The notes beneath the pieces were generated by a model. That model searched no databases. It was not told the origin of the DNA and worked only from the letters and a program-made list of their open reading frames with translations. Shown piece after piece: positions 5,961 to 33,883 of a stretch of 64,000 nucleotides of DNA. How positions within the stretch are numbered: the stretch's first letter is position 1; every line of letters starts with the position of its first letter. Source of the stretch: an uncultured Oscillospiraceae bacterium (lineage in GTDB: Bacteria; Bacillota; Clostridia; Oscillospirales; Oscillospiraceae); assembly GCA_949935795.1 (NCBI GenBank), contig CATLFX010000007.1, forward strand, positions 1 to 64,000, read 5' to 3'. The position numbers were made by a program, and so were the translations under genes.

Positions 5961-6039
5961 TACCGATTTGTAATTTTAATAGAAAAATTAAAAAAATCTC
6001 AAAAAAGTCCTTGCCAAACGGACGTGGTCGTACTATAAT
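5961..6039 (+). promoter_or_regulatory. promoter cassette 1 of 5
   Basis: TACCGA at 5961, an AT-rich spacer with a TAATTTT/AAAATTA inverted repeat, TTGCCA at 6011-6016, a 17-nt spacer and TATAAT at 6034-6039. The box AAAATTATAAAAA follows near 6055. The same layout occurs four more times, each ahead of an operon. This one drives the genes from 6088 to about 9148. Confidence 0.9.
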
Positions 6040-6565: not shown

Positions 6566-6781
6566 ATGAACTACGACCACGAGAAAGGCTATGCTGTCTG
6601 CCACACCGACGAAACAGTTGCCCGCATCAATGACCGGAGGCGGGGTCCTGGGCGCATCAAAATCCGCTACGACATCATCAAGCGGGATGGGAAGCAGACC
6701 ATCGTACACCACGACCTGACCGCAAAAGATGTAAAGCTCATCCGGGCGGAGATTGAGCGGCAGGGTAACGAGCTCTGGTGA
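6566..6781 (+). CDS. small hypothetical protein
   Basis: A 71-residue basic protein; AAAGGAG lies upstream of the chosen ATG. Its middle (RRRGPGRIKIRYDIIKRDG) suggests a small beta-rich nucleic-acid-binding fold, but that is only an impression. Its stop codon is 3 nt before the first paired bases of a hammerhead ribozyme candidate. Confidence 0.7.
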   Translation: MNYDHEKGYAVCHTDETVARINDRRRGPGRIKIRYDIIKRDGKQTIVHHDLTAKDVKLIRAEIERQGNELW

Positions 6782-6784
6782 GAA

Positions 6785-6846
6785 GCCGAAACGGGCCAAC
6801 GGCCCGTCCGCCGGGGATAGCCTCCCGGCGCTGATGATGGCAGGCT
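6785..6846 (+). ncRNA. type II hammerhead ribozyme candidate, copy 1
   Basis: Core in order: GCC (6785-6787), GAAA (6788-6791), stem III with 7 pairs (6791-6797 with 6801-6807), GTC with predicted cleavage after C6808, stem I CGCCGGG/CCCGGCG (6809-6815 with 6824-6830), CTGATGA (6831-6837), one unpaired T, then GGC (6839-6841) closing stem II with GCC. Loop I AGCCT (6819-6823) can pair with the tail AGGCT (6842-6846) as a pseudoknot. The element would cut the mRNA between the genes ending at 6781 and starting at 6862. Two other copies covary with it. Confidence 0.88.
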
Positions 6847-6861
6847 AGAAAGGGTAAAAAG

Positions 6862-7320
6862 ATGCTGGACAAAAATGGCGTGGAGATGAAAACCGGCTGC
6901 ATCGTGAGAATCACGGGGGCCTTCTTTAAGAACGACAACGGCCTGTATTTCGTGGAGCACTCCCCCGGCGACGTCAACTGGTGCGGCTCTGACCACTGCT
7001 TGAAGAAGATTTCAAAGGCCGGGAAAATCAGCGTGGCAAAGTACAGTACCTGCTTCTGGCCCATCTGTATCTTCATCAACGACCGCACCAAAGCGGCGGA
7101 GGCCCACGACTGGAACAAGGAGCACGCTGAGATTGAGGTGGTTTCCATCAAGAACATGGCTGAAGTCGCCGCCTATTTCCGTCAGAAGGCCACCGGCATG
7201 GACGAGTCCATCCGCCGCAATTCTTGGAATTTTGGAGAAGACAGTGAGGTCGTCAAAAAGGACCAGGCGATTCAAGCCCACTATGAGGCAGTCGCCGCCT
7301 CTCTGGAACACCCCGCCTGA
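6862..7320 (+). CDS. hypothetical protein
   Basis: A 152-residue soluble protein, not recognised. The N-terminal half (GCIVRITGAFFKNDNGLYFVEH) looks like a small SH3-like beta barrel. The C-terminal half is helical and charged. It begins shortly after hammerhead copy 1, and its last codons and TGA stop lie inside a second, type I hammerhead core (CTGATGA at 7317-7323), so coding and ribozyme sequence overlap. Confidence 0.75.
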   Translation: MLDKNGVEMKTGCIVRITGAFFKNDNGLYFVEHSPGDVNWCGSDHCLKKISKAGKISVAKYSTCFWPICIFINDRTKAAEAHDWNKEHAEIEVVSIKNMAEVAAYFRQKATGMDESIRRNSWNFGEDSEVVKKDQAIQAHYEAVAASLEHPA

Positions 7321-12220: not shown

Positions 12221-12763
12221 GTGGTAGAGTTTGGCTCAGTCAAGGACCTCATGGAGTCTTTTGAGGAACGACGGATTGAGGCCCAAAAATCCTCTCACGA
12301 GATTCTCAAAGCAATAGAGACCCTGGAGAAAGAGGCTGAGGAAAAGCGTAACGAGGCAGAGCGGCTCAGGGGTGCCTTGAAAAAGATTCCTTCTGTAAAC
12401 TGGAAGGAGGACGTGATGGTCCCGCTGGCTGAGGAAATGGCAAAGCGCACCGGCCGCACCCCGGTTGTACTTGGCCCGCGCGGAATCGGCGCTAAGGTGA
12501 CAATCATCCTTACCGACGGCCCTGGGGACAACTGGTACAAACAGGACTGGCTCGAAATCGTAATAGAACCAACTTTTGAGGACGAACACATGGTCTTTAA
12601 TTACGAGACCGGGGAGACCTGCAACAGATATGAGGAAGGGACCATCGGTGAAGTAAACGGCCTGAACAATATAACGGCGAGGCTTCCGAACAACATAGAG
12701 GAGATTATGAAACTCCTGAAACACTATCCAGCCGAGCCGAGAAATGAGGGAGAAGATGAATAA
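12221..12763 (+). CDS. hypothetical protein with N-terminal coiled coil
   Basis: A 180-residue protein. The GTG start at 12221 is chosen because GGGGGAG precedes it; the alternative longer frame lies within the previous gene. Residues 10-50 are a coiled coil (EILKAIETLEKEAEEKRNEA). The C-terminal 110 residues are mixed alpha/beta (KVTIILTDGPGDNWYK). Function unknown. Confidence 0.7.
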   Translation: MVEFGSVKDLMESFEERRIEAQKSSHEILKAIETLEKEAEEKRNEAERLRGALKKIPSVNWKEDVMVPLAEEMAKRTGRTPVVLGPRGIGAKVTIILTDGPGDNWYKQDWLEIVIEPTFEDEHMVFNYETGETCNRYEEGTIGEVNGLNNITARLPNNIEEIMKLLKHYPAEPRNEGEDE

Positions 12764-13544
12764 AACCAAAATTGAGTGGTGCGACGAGACCTGGAATCCC
12801 GTCACGGGCTGTCTGCATACCTGTGAATACTGCTACGCCCGCCGGATTGCAGAGCGGTTTGGGACCTTGTATAAGGGGCCGCAGCCAGAGGACGAAGGGC
12901 TGTCGTTCGTGCCTGACGAGCCGGAGCGGTTCTATGAGCTGGACGAGCCGGTGAGGAGCGAGGCTGGGAGGATTGAGCCGTACCCTGCCAATTTCTACCC
13001 GACGCTGCACCGCTACCGCATGGATGAGCCAGCCAGGAAGACCAAGGCCCGCACCATCTTCGTGTGCTCCATGGCAGACCTGTTCGGCGCATGGGTGCCG
13101 GACGAGTGGATTGCAGAGGTCTTCGCGGCCTGCCGCAAGGCTCCGCAGCACCGCTACCTGTTTTTGACGAAGAACCCGTCCCGCTATATGGAGCTTGCCT
13201 CCGCTGGCCTGCTGCCGGAGGACAGCAATTTCTGGTATGGGTCCACCATCACCGGGCCGGACATTCCGTTCTGGTGGAGCGACCACCACAATACCTTCGT
13301 CAGCATCGAGCCGATGCTGGAGAAATTCCCGTTCGCAGGGGACGATGCCATCAAAAAAGTCGATTGGGTCATCATGGGGGCCATGACCGGGCCGGGGAGC
13401 AAGGACCACCAGCCGAGGCGGGAATGGGTGGAGGCTCTGGTGGCGGATGCCAAGAGCGCCGGCGTTCCTGTTCTGATGAAGGAAAGCCTGCGGCCAATCG
13501 TTGGCAACGCCGGGATGCTGAGTCAGTTCCCGTGGGAGGTGTAG
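12756..13544 (+). CDS. DUF5131 (phage Gp37/Gp68) radical-SAM-like protein
   Basis: A 262-residue protein of the DUF5131 family common in phages. GCLHTCEYCYARRIAERF carries a CxxxCxxC iron-sulfur motif of radical SAM type near residue 19. The C-terminal part has SIEPMLEKF and WVIMGAMTGPG, then KESL, all characteristic of this family. Radical SAM chemistry on a nucleic acid or nucleotide is the usual guess, but the substrate is not established. The start at 12756 is preferred over 12744 because AGGGAGAAG precedes it. It overlaps the previous gene by 8 nt. Confidence 0.88.
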   Translation: MNKTKIEWCDETWNPVTGCLHTCEYCYARRIAERFGTLYKGPQPEDEGLSFVPDEPERFYELDEPVRSEAGRIEPYPANFYPTLHRYRMDEPARKTKARTIFVCSMADLFGAWVPDEWIAEVFAACRKAPQHRYLFLTKNPSRYMELASAGLLPEDSNFWYGSTITGPDIPFWWSDHHNTFVSIEPMLEKFPFAGDDAIKKVDWVIMGAMTGPGSKDHQPRREWVEALVADAKSAGVPVLMKESLRPIVGNAGMLSQFPWEV

Positions 13545-20593: not shown

Positions 20594-20626
20594 GGGACGG
20601 CCCTCTGAGCGGGGGCCGTCCTTTTG
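20594..20626 (+). terminator. rho-independent terminator of operon 3
   Basis: GGACGGCCC (20595-20603) pairs with GGGCCGTCC (20613-20621), followed by TTTT. It ends the transcript of the PemK/HTH operon. Confidence 0.85.
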
Positions 20627-21021: not shown

Positions 21022-21237
21022 ATGTTGGAGCGTTTGAATGATATGGTCGGTAACTGGTACGGTCGCCTGGAGGACATCACCGAAGAACTCAGCGAGATGG
21101 GCGTGGACGTGGAGAGCGCCTATATCAGCCGCGAGTGCATTGGGCTGACGGTCGAGGACGACGGTGACGACGTGGATGTCCTCATTCGCCTGGGCGGGAC
21201 CGAGAACACCATCACCGTGGACAGAGTGGAGTTCTGA
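21022..21237 (+). CDS. small acidic hypothetical protein
   Basis: A 71-residue, strongly acidic protein (TVEDDGDDVDVLIRLGGTEN). The start at 21022 is preferred because AAGGAGG ends 8 nt upstream; ATG 21016 is too close. First gene of operon 4. An acidic small protein could mimic DNA or bind a basic partner, but this is speculation. Confidence 0.7.
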   Translation: MLERLNDMVGNWYGRLEDITEELSEMGVDVESAYISRECIGLTVEDDGDDVDVLIRLGGTENTITVDRVEF

Positions 21238-21248
21238 TATAGGAATGA

Positions 21249-21309
21249 GCCGAAACGCCCTCCGGGGCGTCCGCAGGAACCGCCCCACCTGCGCTGAAGA
21301 TGGCAGGGC
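21249..21309 (+). ncRNA. type II hammerhead ribozyme candidate, copy 2
   Basis: GCC (21249-21251), GAAA (21252-21255), stem III ACGCCC/GGGCGT closed by a TCCG loop (21255-21270), C21271 of a GTC triplet as the predicted cut site, stem I CGCAGG/CCTGCG (21272-21277 with 21288-21293), CTGAAGA (21294-21300), one T, GGC (21302-21304). Loop I GCCC (21282-21285) can pair with tail GGGC (21306-21309). Stems I and III differ from copy 1 in sequence but keep pairing. Confidence 0.88.
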
Positions 21310-21323
21310 AGAAAGGAAATAAA

Positions 21324-21509
21324 ATGAATATCAACATCACCATGGACGACATCCGAAACTTCATCTCCAGCGTGGAGTATCTGAAGGAGGACCTGGAGGG
21401 GATAGATGTCTCCGGCGACTTCGCCCCGGACCCGCAGACCAGCGTTTCCGCCTGGGAGCTCCTGACGGACAGCACTGTGTATAAGGCGCTCACCGAGGCC
21501 GTCGAGTAG
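21324..21509 (+). CDS. small acidic hypothetical protein
   Basis: A 61-residue protein (MNINITMDDIRNFISSVEYL). AAAGGAAATAAA precedes the ATG. It is flanked on both sides by hammerhead candidates, so its mRNA could be released as a separate piece of about 276 nt. Function unknown. Confidence 0.7.
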   Translation: MNINITMDDIRNFISSVEYLKEDLEGIDVSGDFAPDPQTSVSAWELLTDSTVYKALTEAVE

Positions 21510-21523
21510 TCCAGAAAACAACA

Positions 21524-21585
21524 GCCGAAACGGGCCGCTGGCCCGTCGCCGGTGGGCGCCCTCCCCGGCCTGACGATGGCAGGGC
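21524..21585 (+). ncRNA. type II hammerhead ribozyme candidate, copy 3
   Basis: GCC (21524-21526), GAAA (21527-21530), stem III ACGGGCC/GGCCCGT (21530-21546), C21547 of a GTC triplet as predicted cut site, stem I GCCGG/CCGGC (21548-21552 with 21565-21569), CTGACGA (21570-21576), one T, GGC (21578-21580). Loop I GCCCT (21558-21562) pairs with tail AGGGC (21581-21585). It lies just before the gene at 21603. Confidence 0.88.
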
Positions 21586-21602
21586 ATGAAAGGAGCAGCG
21601 AC

Positions 21603-22778
21603 ATGAGGTACGCTATTTATGAGGGTAACATGGAGCGTTTGGGCAAGAAGATGGCCCGCATCCAGAGCAAATGCCGCAAGTACGGCTGTGACTTCCACTA
21701 CGAGGAGGTCGGCGAGGAGTTCCGGGAGCTGACGGACGACAACGGCTGCACCTACACGGCCCGCTTCGTCATCATCGAGGCTGAGGGCGTTGCGGTCGTG
21801 AACGGCTGGAGGTTCATCGCAAAGGTGGAGCACACGGAGAAGGGCAACCTCATCAACCGGGCCTGCGACATCGAGGTCCCTGAGCGGTACTACACCGGCC
21901 TCCCGGTATGCGAGCACTGCAACAGCAAGCGGCTCCGCAAAGATACCTACATCGTAATGGATGAGGAAACCGGGGAGTTTAAGCAGGTCGGAAAGAGCTG
22001 CCTCAAAGACTTCACGCACGGCATGAGCGCAGAGGTGGCCGCTCAGTACGTGGCGGCGTTCGATGACCTCATCGAAGGTGAGGCTCCCTACGAGGGATGC
22101 AAAATCCGGTGCTACATCGAAACCGAGGAGTGGCTGCGGTATGTCTCCGAGACCATCCGGCACTTCGGTTATGTGAAGTACAATGACGACGGCGAGGACA
22201 GCACCAGGATGAGGGCTGGCAAATACTACTGGATGGACCACGGCGGGGACTTCGGCAAGAAGGAGCGCGAGAGGTACAGAGCAGAGATGGATGCTTGCGG
22301 CTTCAACCCTGAATCCGACGAGGCAAAGTCCGAAACGGCTGCGGCCATGGAGTGGCTGGTGGCCCAGGACGAAAGCAATAACTATATGCACAACCTCAAA
22401 ACCGCCTGTGCCTTGACCTATATCGAGAGTCGGCACCTCGGCATCACCGCCAGCCTGTTCCCGGCCTACAACCGCGAGCTGGCCAGCGAGGATGAGCGGC
22501 GCCGCCGGGAAAAGGCGGCAAAGTCCTCTGAGTGGTTCGGCGAGGTCGGCCAGCGCATCGAGGTGGAGGTGGCCGAGATGAGCTGCCTGACCGGATGGGA
22601 GACGCAATGGGGCTATACGAAGATTTACAAAATCGTTGACGCCGCCGGCCATGTCTTCACCTGGAAGACCTCCAACTGGGTCGAGGATGGAGTGAAGACC
22701 ATCAAAGGGACCATCAAGGCCCACAATGAGTATAAGGGCATGAAGCAGACGGAGTTGACCCGCTGCAAATGCGCCTGA
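21603..22778 (+). CDS. large hypothetical phage/plasmid protein with Cys pairs
   Basis: A 391-residue protein of a type found in gut Firmicutes mobile elements; I cannot name its family. Residues 95-145 contain PVCEHCNSKRLRKDTYIV and GKSCLKDFTH, a probable zinc site of form CxxC...C. Later parts are helical with a cluster DDGEDSTRMRAGKYYW. It is the last and largest gene of operon 4. The start at 21603 follows GAAAGGAGCAGCG; a longer frame would cover hammerhead copy 3. Confidence 0.75.
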   Translation: MRYAIYEGNMERLGKKMARIQSKCRKYGCDFHYEEVGEEFRELTDDNGCTYTARFVIIEAEGVAVVNGWRFIAKVEHTEKGNLINRACDIEVPERYYTGLPVCEHCNSKRLRKDTYIVMDEETGEFKQVGKSCLKDFTHGMSAEVAAQYVAAFDDLIEGEAPYEGCKIRCYIETEEWLRYVSETIRHFGYVKYNDDGEDSTRMRAGKYYWMDHGGDFGKKERERYRAEMDACGFNPESDEAKSETAAAMEWLVAQDESNNYMHNLKTACALTYIESRHLGITASLFPAYNRELASEDERRRREKAAKSSEWFGEVGQRIEVEVAEMSCLTGWETQWGYTKIYKIVDAAGHVFTWKTSNWVEDGVKTIKGTIKAHNEYKGMKQTELTRCKCA

Positions 22779-24653: not shown

Positions 24654-25208
24654 ATGCCTGAGAGCATCAAAAGAGATGAACATATCCGGCTGAAGAACGG
24701 GAAGCAGATGCTTCTGGACGCCTCCAAGCTGGAGAATGGGAAATACGAGGTCATGCTGCTGAATCCGAGGACCGGCGCAGAGGTGGACAGCGCCACGGTC
24801 AAGACCGAGGAGGAAGCCCTGGCTGAGTTTGAGCGGCTACGGAAGAAGTACCACGCCCCGGATGCGGTGCCGGTGGAGCTGACGGGCCGCTACAAGAAGC
24901 TGGCGGAGGACCTCAAAGCGGCCCTTGTCTATGGTCTGGAGCGGAAGGGGGACGACGATGGGGGAACGAGCAATTTCGACGCCCCGTCCCTGCACCTCCC
25001 TGGATGGACGAGGAAGAAGGTCGAGGCCGCTGCCGAGTACGCCGGCCTCGGGTGCTTTACCTGGAACCTCTGGGGCAGCAAGTCCTATGTGTTTTCGATT
25101 CGGCAGGGGGTGGGCCAGGGCTACACCCGGTCGAGGGCGGCGGAGGCCATGCGTGAGTACCTGAGCGGCCTGGGCTATGATGCCTCGACCTACTGTCAAG
25201 CGGACTGA
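24654..25208 (+). CDS. hypothetical protein
   Basis: A 184-residue protein. Two parts are visible: a small N-terminal beta domain (KRDEHIRLKNGKQMLLDASK) and a C-terminal part with WTRKKVEAAAEYAGLGCFTW. AAAGGAGCGAGTG precedes the ATG. No family recognised. Confidence 0.7.
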   Translation: MPESIKRDEHIRLKNGKQMLLDASKLENGKYEVMLLNPRTGAEVDSATVKTEEEALAEFERLRKKYHAPDAVPVELTGRYKKLAEDLKAALVYGLERKGDDDGGTSNFDAPSLHLPGWTRKKVEAAAEYAGLGCFTWNLWGSKSYVFSIRQGVGQGYTRSRAAEAMREYLSGLGYDASTYCQAD

Positions 25209-33605: not shown

Positions 33606-33883
33606 ATTCGGGGACAAAAAACGCCCCCGACGTTTCGTCAGGGGCGCAATAAATCATATCACGCGGTACCACCCTAATTCCGCGCACGGTCACCCGATGC
33701 GCGCTCTTGGCCTCCAACAAGGCCGCGGCCTGTAACGGGACCTCCCGTCCGATCCTACTGAAAAGTTCAGACCGGCGGCTCCGGGGCCAGTATCCACGCG
33801 GGGTCCCGCGCCGGTTCGCACCAACCACCGGCTCTCTGAGCGGGGAAAAACCGCGTCTTCTTCCCATCAACGCCTTTTGCTTG
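33606..33883 (-). promoter_or_regulatory. T-box riboswitch of leuA
   Basis: The conserved antiterminator sequence GGGTGGTACCGCG is at 33662-33674 (minus strand). The competing terminator (GCGCCCCTGACG...CGTCGGGGGCG, then T run) is at 33616-33648. Upstream AGAGAG and GGTGCGAACCGG of stem I are present. A CTG in the expected specifier region would fit tRNA-Leu, but I place it only tentatively. The leader senses charging of the tRNA. Confidence 0.92.

Follow-up and report, generated by a model that had tools for sequence, protein, structure and literature searches.

What do self-cleaving ribozymes do when they stand between the genes of a phage? This question is raised by a small gene of 61 amino acids (aa) lying between two type II hammerheads in the window, i.e., the whole stretch of 64,000 nucleotides analyzed here, which represents contig C7 of a genome (2.2 Mb, 70 contigs) of an uncultured Oscillospiraceae bacterium. 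The left 32 kb of the window look like a prophage end and include genes for an endolysin, a holin, and a reverse transcriptase, as well as a gene with weak repressor/CII-like matches. An RT-18 RNA (61.9 bits) precedes the reverse transcriptase gene (phrog_1423, RVT_1; 434-1762), and a DUF5131 protein is encoded at 12756-13544 in the prophage part. Host genes begin at 31.9 kb. The leuA gene at 31.9 kb and a gene for a threonyl-type tRNA synthetase at 37.2 kb are both located on the minus strand and have T-box leaders:

33637-33879, minus strand: T-box leader of leuA, above the Rfam gathering score
38975-39240, minus strand: T-box leader of the threonyl-type tRNA synthetase gene, below the gathering score

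The hammerheads of the window belong to two units of the prophage part, with the following features:

6011..6039, plus strand: promoter-like site heading the unit that contains hammerhead copy 1
6566..6781, plus strand: 71-aa open reading frame (ORF call) before hammerhead copy 1
6784..6849, plus strand: type II hammerhead copy 1 (Rfam RF02276), predicted cut 6808/6809
6862..7320, plus strand: 152-aa open reading frame (ORF call) after hammerhead copy 1, with a homologue in viral contig L050
20946..20974, plus strand: promoter-like site TTGCCA-17-TATAAT (11/12) at the start of the two-hammerhead unit
21022..21237, plus strand: 71-aa ORF, first gene of this unit, without a Pfam or PHROG match
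21248..21312, plus strand: type II hammerhead copy 2 (sub-gathering match to Rfam RF02276), predicted cut 21271/21272
21324..21509, plus strand: 61-aa ORF with a Shine-Dalgarno sequence (SD), without a family match in Pfam or PHROG
21523..21588, plus strand: type II hammerhead copy 3 (Rfam RF02276), predicted cut 21547/21548
21603..22778, plus strand: 391-aa ORF, third gene of the unit, phrog_2319, unknown function

In the Rfam scan of the window, copies 1 and 3 scored 56.5 and 42.6 bits against RF02276 (gathering score 37), and copy 2 scored 35.1 bits (E 0.0022), which is 1.9 bits below that threshold. A loose core pattern occurred three times in the window versus 0.09 expected from shuffles, and a structural descriptor, which required the core, two closed hairpins with 4 or more bp each, and a stem II with 2 or more bp, had no match on the opposite strand of the window. 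The conserved hammerhead core, listed as CUGANGA, GAA, A15.1-U16.1, and H17 at the cut (PMC3088659, cited here and below from part of its text), is complete in all three copies, with the variants CTGAAGA in copy 2 and CTGACGA in copy 3. Loops close stems I and III and stem II is open, as in the type II topology. These results bear out the preliminary description, which had placed type II hammerheads around the 61-aa gene and had named core bases that are indeed present. Stem II is GCC/GGC both in copy 2 (21249-21251 with 21302-21304) and in copy 3 (21524-21526 with 21578-21580). An extra U stands between A9 and this 3-bp stem II in all three window copies, which the Rfam alignment renders as a 2-bp stem II with a two-base insert after A9; the extra U was also found in 294 of 376 distinct cores, a figure biased by the search pattern, which required that U. 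The source genome has a fourth hammerhead on contig C12 (L270:8236-8299). Folding energy was uninformative for the three window ribozyme pieces (z -1.08 to 0.52). On the bare ribozyme, RNAfold largely kept stems I and III and lost stem II, and on longer pieces it predicted other folds for copies 2 and 3.

The stems differ among the copies by paired changes. Stem III reads ACGCCC/GGGCGT in copy 2 versus ACGGGCC/GGCCCGT in copy 3, and stem I CGCAGG/CCTGCG versus GCCGG/CCGGC; a base-by-base reading of stems III and I among the copies thus agrees with what had been claimed for them. For the pseudoknot between loop I and the 3' tail (AGCCT/AGGCT in copy 1, GCCC/GGGC in copy 2, GCCCT/AGGGC in copy 3; 5, 4, and 5 bp), the claimed change is paired in comparison with copy 1, but there is hardly any change between copies 2 and 3. 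The homologue of the 152-aa gene in viral contig L050 is 67% identical and has a hammerhead in the same position, with stems that are different yet paired, which provides independent support for the observation in the window.

To extend this comparison, the 397 proteins encoded downstream of hammerheads were grouped into 218 clusters, indicating that the genes served by hammerheads are diverse, as in the 2011 paper discussed below. Among ribozymes preceding homologous genes, 190 of 1232 stem cells held paired changes, 60 held one-sided changes, and 34 were broken, the last being a lower bound because pairing of the first four positions in every stem is imposed by the descriptor. This count is restricted to clusters containing three or more distinct ribozymes (15 of 218); a few duplicate loci are left in the set of 397 proteins, and in a few clusters two ribozymes in succession precede a single gene. 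The stem changes are compensatory in the window copies, in the L050 homologue, and at the homologous junctions.

The pseudoknot was not a selection criterion in the hammerhead set. Its alignment comprised 274 of 349 matches (74 without the one-base insert and one with a short stem III were dropped), reduced to 102 non-redundant rows. By MI-APC, four of the five pseudoknot pairs ranked 12-15 of 1431 column pairs and the fifth ranked 209. Pairing at three of the five pairs lay above every one of 300 permutations, and at the remaining two it did not. When the register was slid by one base, two positions paired better (84 and 87 of 102 rows versus 71 and 63), suggesting that the pseudoknot register differs between lineages. 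Loop III had 4 nt in 204 of the 376 distinct cores, and 137 of these loops were UNCG or GNRA.

Such data bear on the idea that the ribozymes are decaying or neutral copies of a selfish element with no present role. The score of copy 2 below the Rfam threshold and the gain and loss of ribozymes among homologues (see below) would be in line with it. However, the window cores are intact, the stem changes are paired, and both the orientation and the placement are fixed, so that this idea is hardly credible.

The placement was analyzed in a larger collection. Core-pattern scans yielded at least 120 viral-contig stretches and at least 119 genome-contig stretches, and Rfam hammerheads were found in 11 of 199 genomes, the source genome included. 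The descriptor gave 381 matches in 266 loci, and scanning a single Markov-1 random copy of every locus gave no match; among the matches listed, 239 of the 266 loci had been picked because they contain the core pattern. An SD of 4 nt or more, together with an ATG, lay 10-40 nt behind stem II in 226 of 347 pattern-selected hammerheads among the matches listed (the 347 of 354 deduplicated matches with at least 150 nt downstream), versus 6.6% of random positions drawn from these loci (456 of 6940), and this SD start was often 7-15 nt 3' of stem II. On the other side, an ORF with 40 or more codons had its stop codon overlapping stem II or at most one base from it in 160 of 343 cases among the matches listed (343 of 349 matches were counted; random approximately 1.2%): the stop overlapped the first base of stem II in 42, abutted it in 72, and left one base between in 46. 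A stop in the 1-20 range of stem II was present in 281 of the 343 among the matches listed (random approximately 8%). Pattern-selected type II hammerheads thus take up the space that separates the stop codon of one gene from the SD of the next. No locus had matches on both strands (459 matches, with redundant loci and related phages included). In the window, 3, 11, and 14 bases separate the upstream stop codon from stem II in copies 1, 2, and 3, respectively, indicating an arrangement looser than the commonest one; in copy 2, an SD and ATG follow directly 3'. The fold, the covariation, the placement, the single orientation, and the arrays described below can all be read from the sequences themselves.

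The close contact with stop codons might suggest that the ribozymes are gene switches, in which a terminating or initiating ribosome blocks folding and translation thereby decides whether the RNA is cut. The 160 of 343 stops at or within one base of stem II (among the matches listed), the SD start often only 7-15 nt behind stem II, and the competing folds predicted for copies 2 and 3 are consistent with such a switch. On the contrary, the 3' tail pairs with loop I rather than with the SD, the region from the core to the gene showed no aptamer-like domain, the short stable loops (4-nt loop III in 204 of 376) look made for fast folding, and none of the three window stops lies on stem II. We consider translation-controlled cutting unlikely.

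The unit at 21 kb contains, in order, a promoter-like site, the 71-aa gene, a hammerhead, the 61-aa gene, a hammerhead, and the 391-aa gene. The unusual promoter-like motif TTGCCA...TACTATAATWATAAT has three copies in the prophage, at 6011, 20946, and 22879, two of which head hammerhead-bearing units. A terminator-like hairpin at 20602-20615 may end the preceding unit, although such sites are hardly commoner than in shuffles (3 versus 2.2 expected). The 61-aa ORF with its SD was located as previously described, and the ORF list gives 69 aa from an earlier ATG. By their coordinates, cuts after 21271 and 21547 would bound a piece of 276 nt (21272-21547), also in agreement with the preliminary description. 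The locus thereby presents the pattern of a prophage cluster: two same-strand copies, predicted cuts 276 nt apart, one gene between them, and phage-like genes nearby.

Taken together, we think it probable that co-transcriptional self-cleavage separates neighbouring phage cistrons into mRNAs with hairpin ends. Each hammerhead would fold during synthesis of the polycistronic mRNA and cut once, and because the cut lies between two closed hairpins (stems III and I), each fragment would receive a hairpin end. The upstream mRNA would end with its stop codon, the stem-III hairpin, one C, and a 2',3'-cyclic phosphate, and the downstream mRNA would begin with a 5'-hydroxyl on the first base of the stem-I hairpin, held by the pseudoknot and followed by the SD and start codon. 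The transcript at 21 kb would thus yield three single-gene RNAs, and the 61-aa gene would be carried by the middle one, of 276 nt. Such cutting probably serves to uncouple neighbours, i.e., to allow separate translation and decay of mRNAs with hairpin-shielded ends and no triphosphate, and every cistron would gain ends of its own without a second promoter. In other bacterial RNAs, 5'-hydroxyl and hairpin ends are known to alter decay. We infer that the window copies are cleaved in the host and that this affects stability or translation; processing of the phage mRNA by these ribozymes, as had been proposed for this locus, is the most likely reading of the sequence. Evidence against this reading comes from copy 2, a sub-gathering match with a 4-bp pseudoknot, and from the competing RNAfold folds of copies 2 and 3. 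In one hammerhead of the 2011 paper, shortening the pseudoknot from 6 to 4 bp slowed cleavage approximately 20-fold, and 4 of the 18 consensus hammerheads assayed in 2011 gave no cleavage (PMC3088659).

The cut pieces could also be joined again by two neighbouring hammerheads, which would either circularize a single-gene mRNA or take a gene out. As the window copies share the stem II GCC/GGC, the half-ribozymes at the ends of the 276-nt piece could pair, and 5'-hydroxyl and 2',3'-cyclic phosphate ends can be ligated. Nevertheless, stem II was cross-compatible in 118 of 178 neighbouring pairs (related phages included) versus 115 expected from shuffled order, and arrays of the type found in Streptomyces phage R4 mix GGC/GCC, GCC/GGC, and TGC/GCA. 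In addition, spliced or circular products were looked for in 2011 and none were detected, according to the cited part of that paper (PMC3088659). Re-joining is thus highly improbable; splicing or circularization via shared stem II strands was rejected for lack of an excess of compatible neighbours, and ligation into circles as a rule is unlikely.

The homologues of the window genes vary in whether they carry a ribozyme. The homologue of the 391-aa gene in L006 (72% identical) has no hammerhead and is preceded by a 12/12 promoter-like site, and another homologue, in L008, likewise has no ribozyme in front. Conversely, homologues of the genes at 24654 and 8034 of the window are accompanied by a hammerhead in L069 and L239, which the window genes lack. 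The presence of homologous genes without a ribozyme in other phages indicates that the ribozyme is not essential to the gene, a point against the proposed processing. A tblastn search against the collected loci found relatives of the 71-aa (21022) and 152-aa proteins, those of the 71-aa protein lying near hammerheads in L219 and L227, and a peptide-pattern search of viral contigs found no relatives of the 61-aa, 152-aa, or 71-aa (21022) proteins. The 61-aa gene was found in its own genome only and was absent from the 41 other genomes of the genus (42 searched), and the 391-aa gene was found only in its own genome among 200 genomes sampled from the family. In the cluster of L226:1622-3628, related genes stand behind hammerheads in eight loci, and the representative scanned is a Mu-type transposase.

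Gain and loss of the ribozyme in front of homologous genes could also mean that the hammerheads serve as portable boundaries for gene shuffling, providing homology for recombination with cleavage being incidental. A hammerhead stretch of 71 bp (84.5%) is common to the window and Faecalibacterium phage Mushu, and their flanking genes were unrelated in the four comparisons made, as would be expected from such exchange. However, the stems drift yet stay paired, which recombination would not need, and unrelated folds (Twister-sister and one pistol) occupy the same slot. A role in shuffling alone is therefore very unlikely, and we return to cleavage between cistrons as the favoured explanation.

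Arrays of hammerheads extend the pattern seen at the 61-aa gene. Using our own ORF caller and with related phages kept in, we counted 132 intervals between neighbouring hammerheads: 73 contained one gene, 29 two, 26 three to seven, and 4 none. Long arrays occur in cultured Streptomyces phages, among which R4 has nine hammerheads, all above the Rfam gathering score, in the following stretch:

NC_019414.1 36001-51071: hammerhead stretch of phage R4 (L268)

The annotation of this stretch contains coding genes only and lacks the nine hammerheads. For five of them, the annotated gene start falls on or before the ribozyme while an in-frame start with an SD follows 3' of it; three others coincide with a very small annotated ORF, and the ninth is free of such overlap. 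Streptomyces phage Hank144 has nine by the descriptor, seven of them above threshold. Three viral records, presumed to be phages Janus, Alvy, and Diane, contain 11, 11, and 9, respectively, with E-values not above 0.001. The largest array was found in a 112-kb viral contig (L271) with 20 hammerheads by Rfam E-value, only 4-5 of them above the gathering score. By the descriptor, 23 lie within 13 kb of this contig (L271:877-13935) on one strand, nearly all between consecutive ORFs, with an ORF stop within 20 nt in 20 of 23 and an SD start in 22 of 23. Matches were also present in genomes titled Planctomycetota and Alphaproteobacteria.

The same slot can be occupied by other ribozymes. Twister-sister (RF02681) has an unrelated fold, yet in related genomes it resembles the hammerheads in its position between stop codon and SD and in its tandem occurrence. 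Of 14 matches in 7 of 296 related genomes, 10 had an ORF stop within 4 nt of the ribozyme start and 12 had an SD and ATG within 120 nt, both being raw counts that include some near-identical copies and have no random baseline. In two related genomes, Twister-sisters stand in tandem, three within 2 kb in each (L278-L291; one of the six below the cut-off), and the stop codon often overlaps the start of the tandem ribozymes. In L069, whose genes are homologous to those of the window, two hammerhead junctions are followed by a Twister-sister junction. A pistol ribozyme (RF02679) in L009 likewise sits between stop and SD, in contrast to three matches in relatives that show no clear fit to this slot; as a general slot filler, the pistol was rejected on the basis of these three matches in 296 genomes.

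Three features point to cutting between cistrons: the fit of the ribozyme between stop and SD, the frequency of intervals with a single gene, and the replacement of one ribozyme class by another. Operons punctuated by ribozymes may even be general in phages of at least two bacterial phyla, a tentative proposal to which we give slightly less than even chances. It would cover the Streptomyces and Faecalibacterium phages and probably more. If true, early transcripts would dissolve, by up to approximately 23 cuts, into mRNAs of gene size whose 5' ends lack phosphate and are shielded by hairpins, and the interchange of hammerheads, Twister-sisters, and at least one pistol in a single slot would mean that the cut, and not one RNA family, is selected. 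Nine predicted cuts are offered by phage R4, which was isolated on S. coelicolor, and the placement and the arrays make the idea directly testable.

Both this kind of element and the processing scheme are already known. Perreault et al. (2011) described prophage hammerheads flanking single genes and proposed processing into single-gene or operon-length mRNAs, and three tandem arrays cleaved in vitro, one of them also in E. coli, while the role of bacterial and phage hammerheads was left open (PMC3088659). For phage hammerhead arrays beyond that paper, we found no report among the papers listed from the open PMC literature, a search that leaves most subscription papers outside, so that earlier reports are possible. 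A crystal structure of a pseudoknot hammerhead is available (PMC11300833, likewise cited from part of its text). The hammerhead of haloviruses HF1/HF2 (HHphage) is similar in lying 13 nt before a start codon in a polycistronic early transcript, and a mapped 5' end of the transcript lies within 3 nt of the cut; it differs from those of the window by a core insertion, a high-salt host, and the salt-controlled regulation offered for it (PMC3088659). The closest likeness is to the prophage hammerheads of the same paper, which share with the window copies the core, the type II topology, the pseudoknot between loop I and 3' tail, the clusters around single genes, and the proposed role in cutting the transcript, although the genes and the phage are different (PMC3088659). 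Figures for the fit between stop and SD and arrays of 9 to 23 were not met in the cited part of that text (PMC3088659). What this analysis adds to the 2011 work is how precisely the ribozymes are placed, how large the arrays become, that one class of ribozyme can stand in for another in a given slot, and that phage R4 lends itself to a test.
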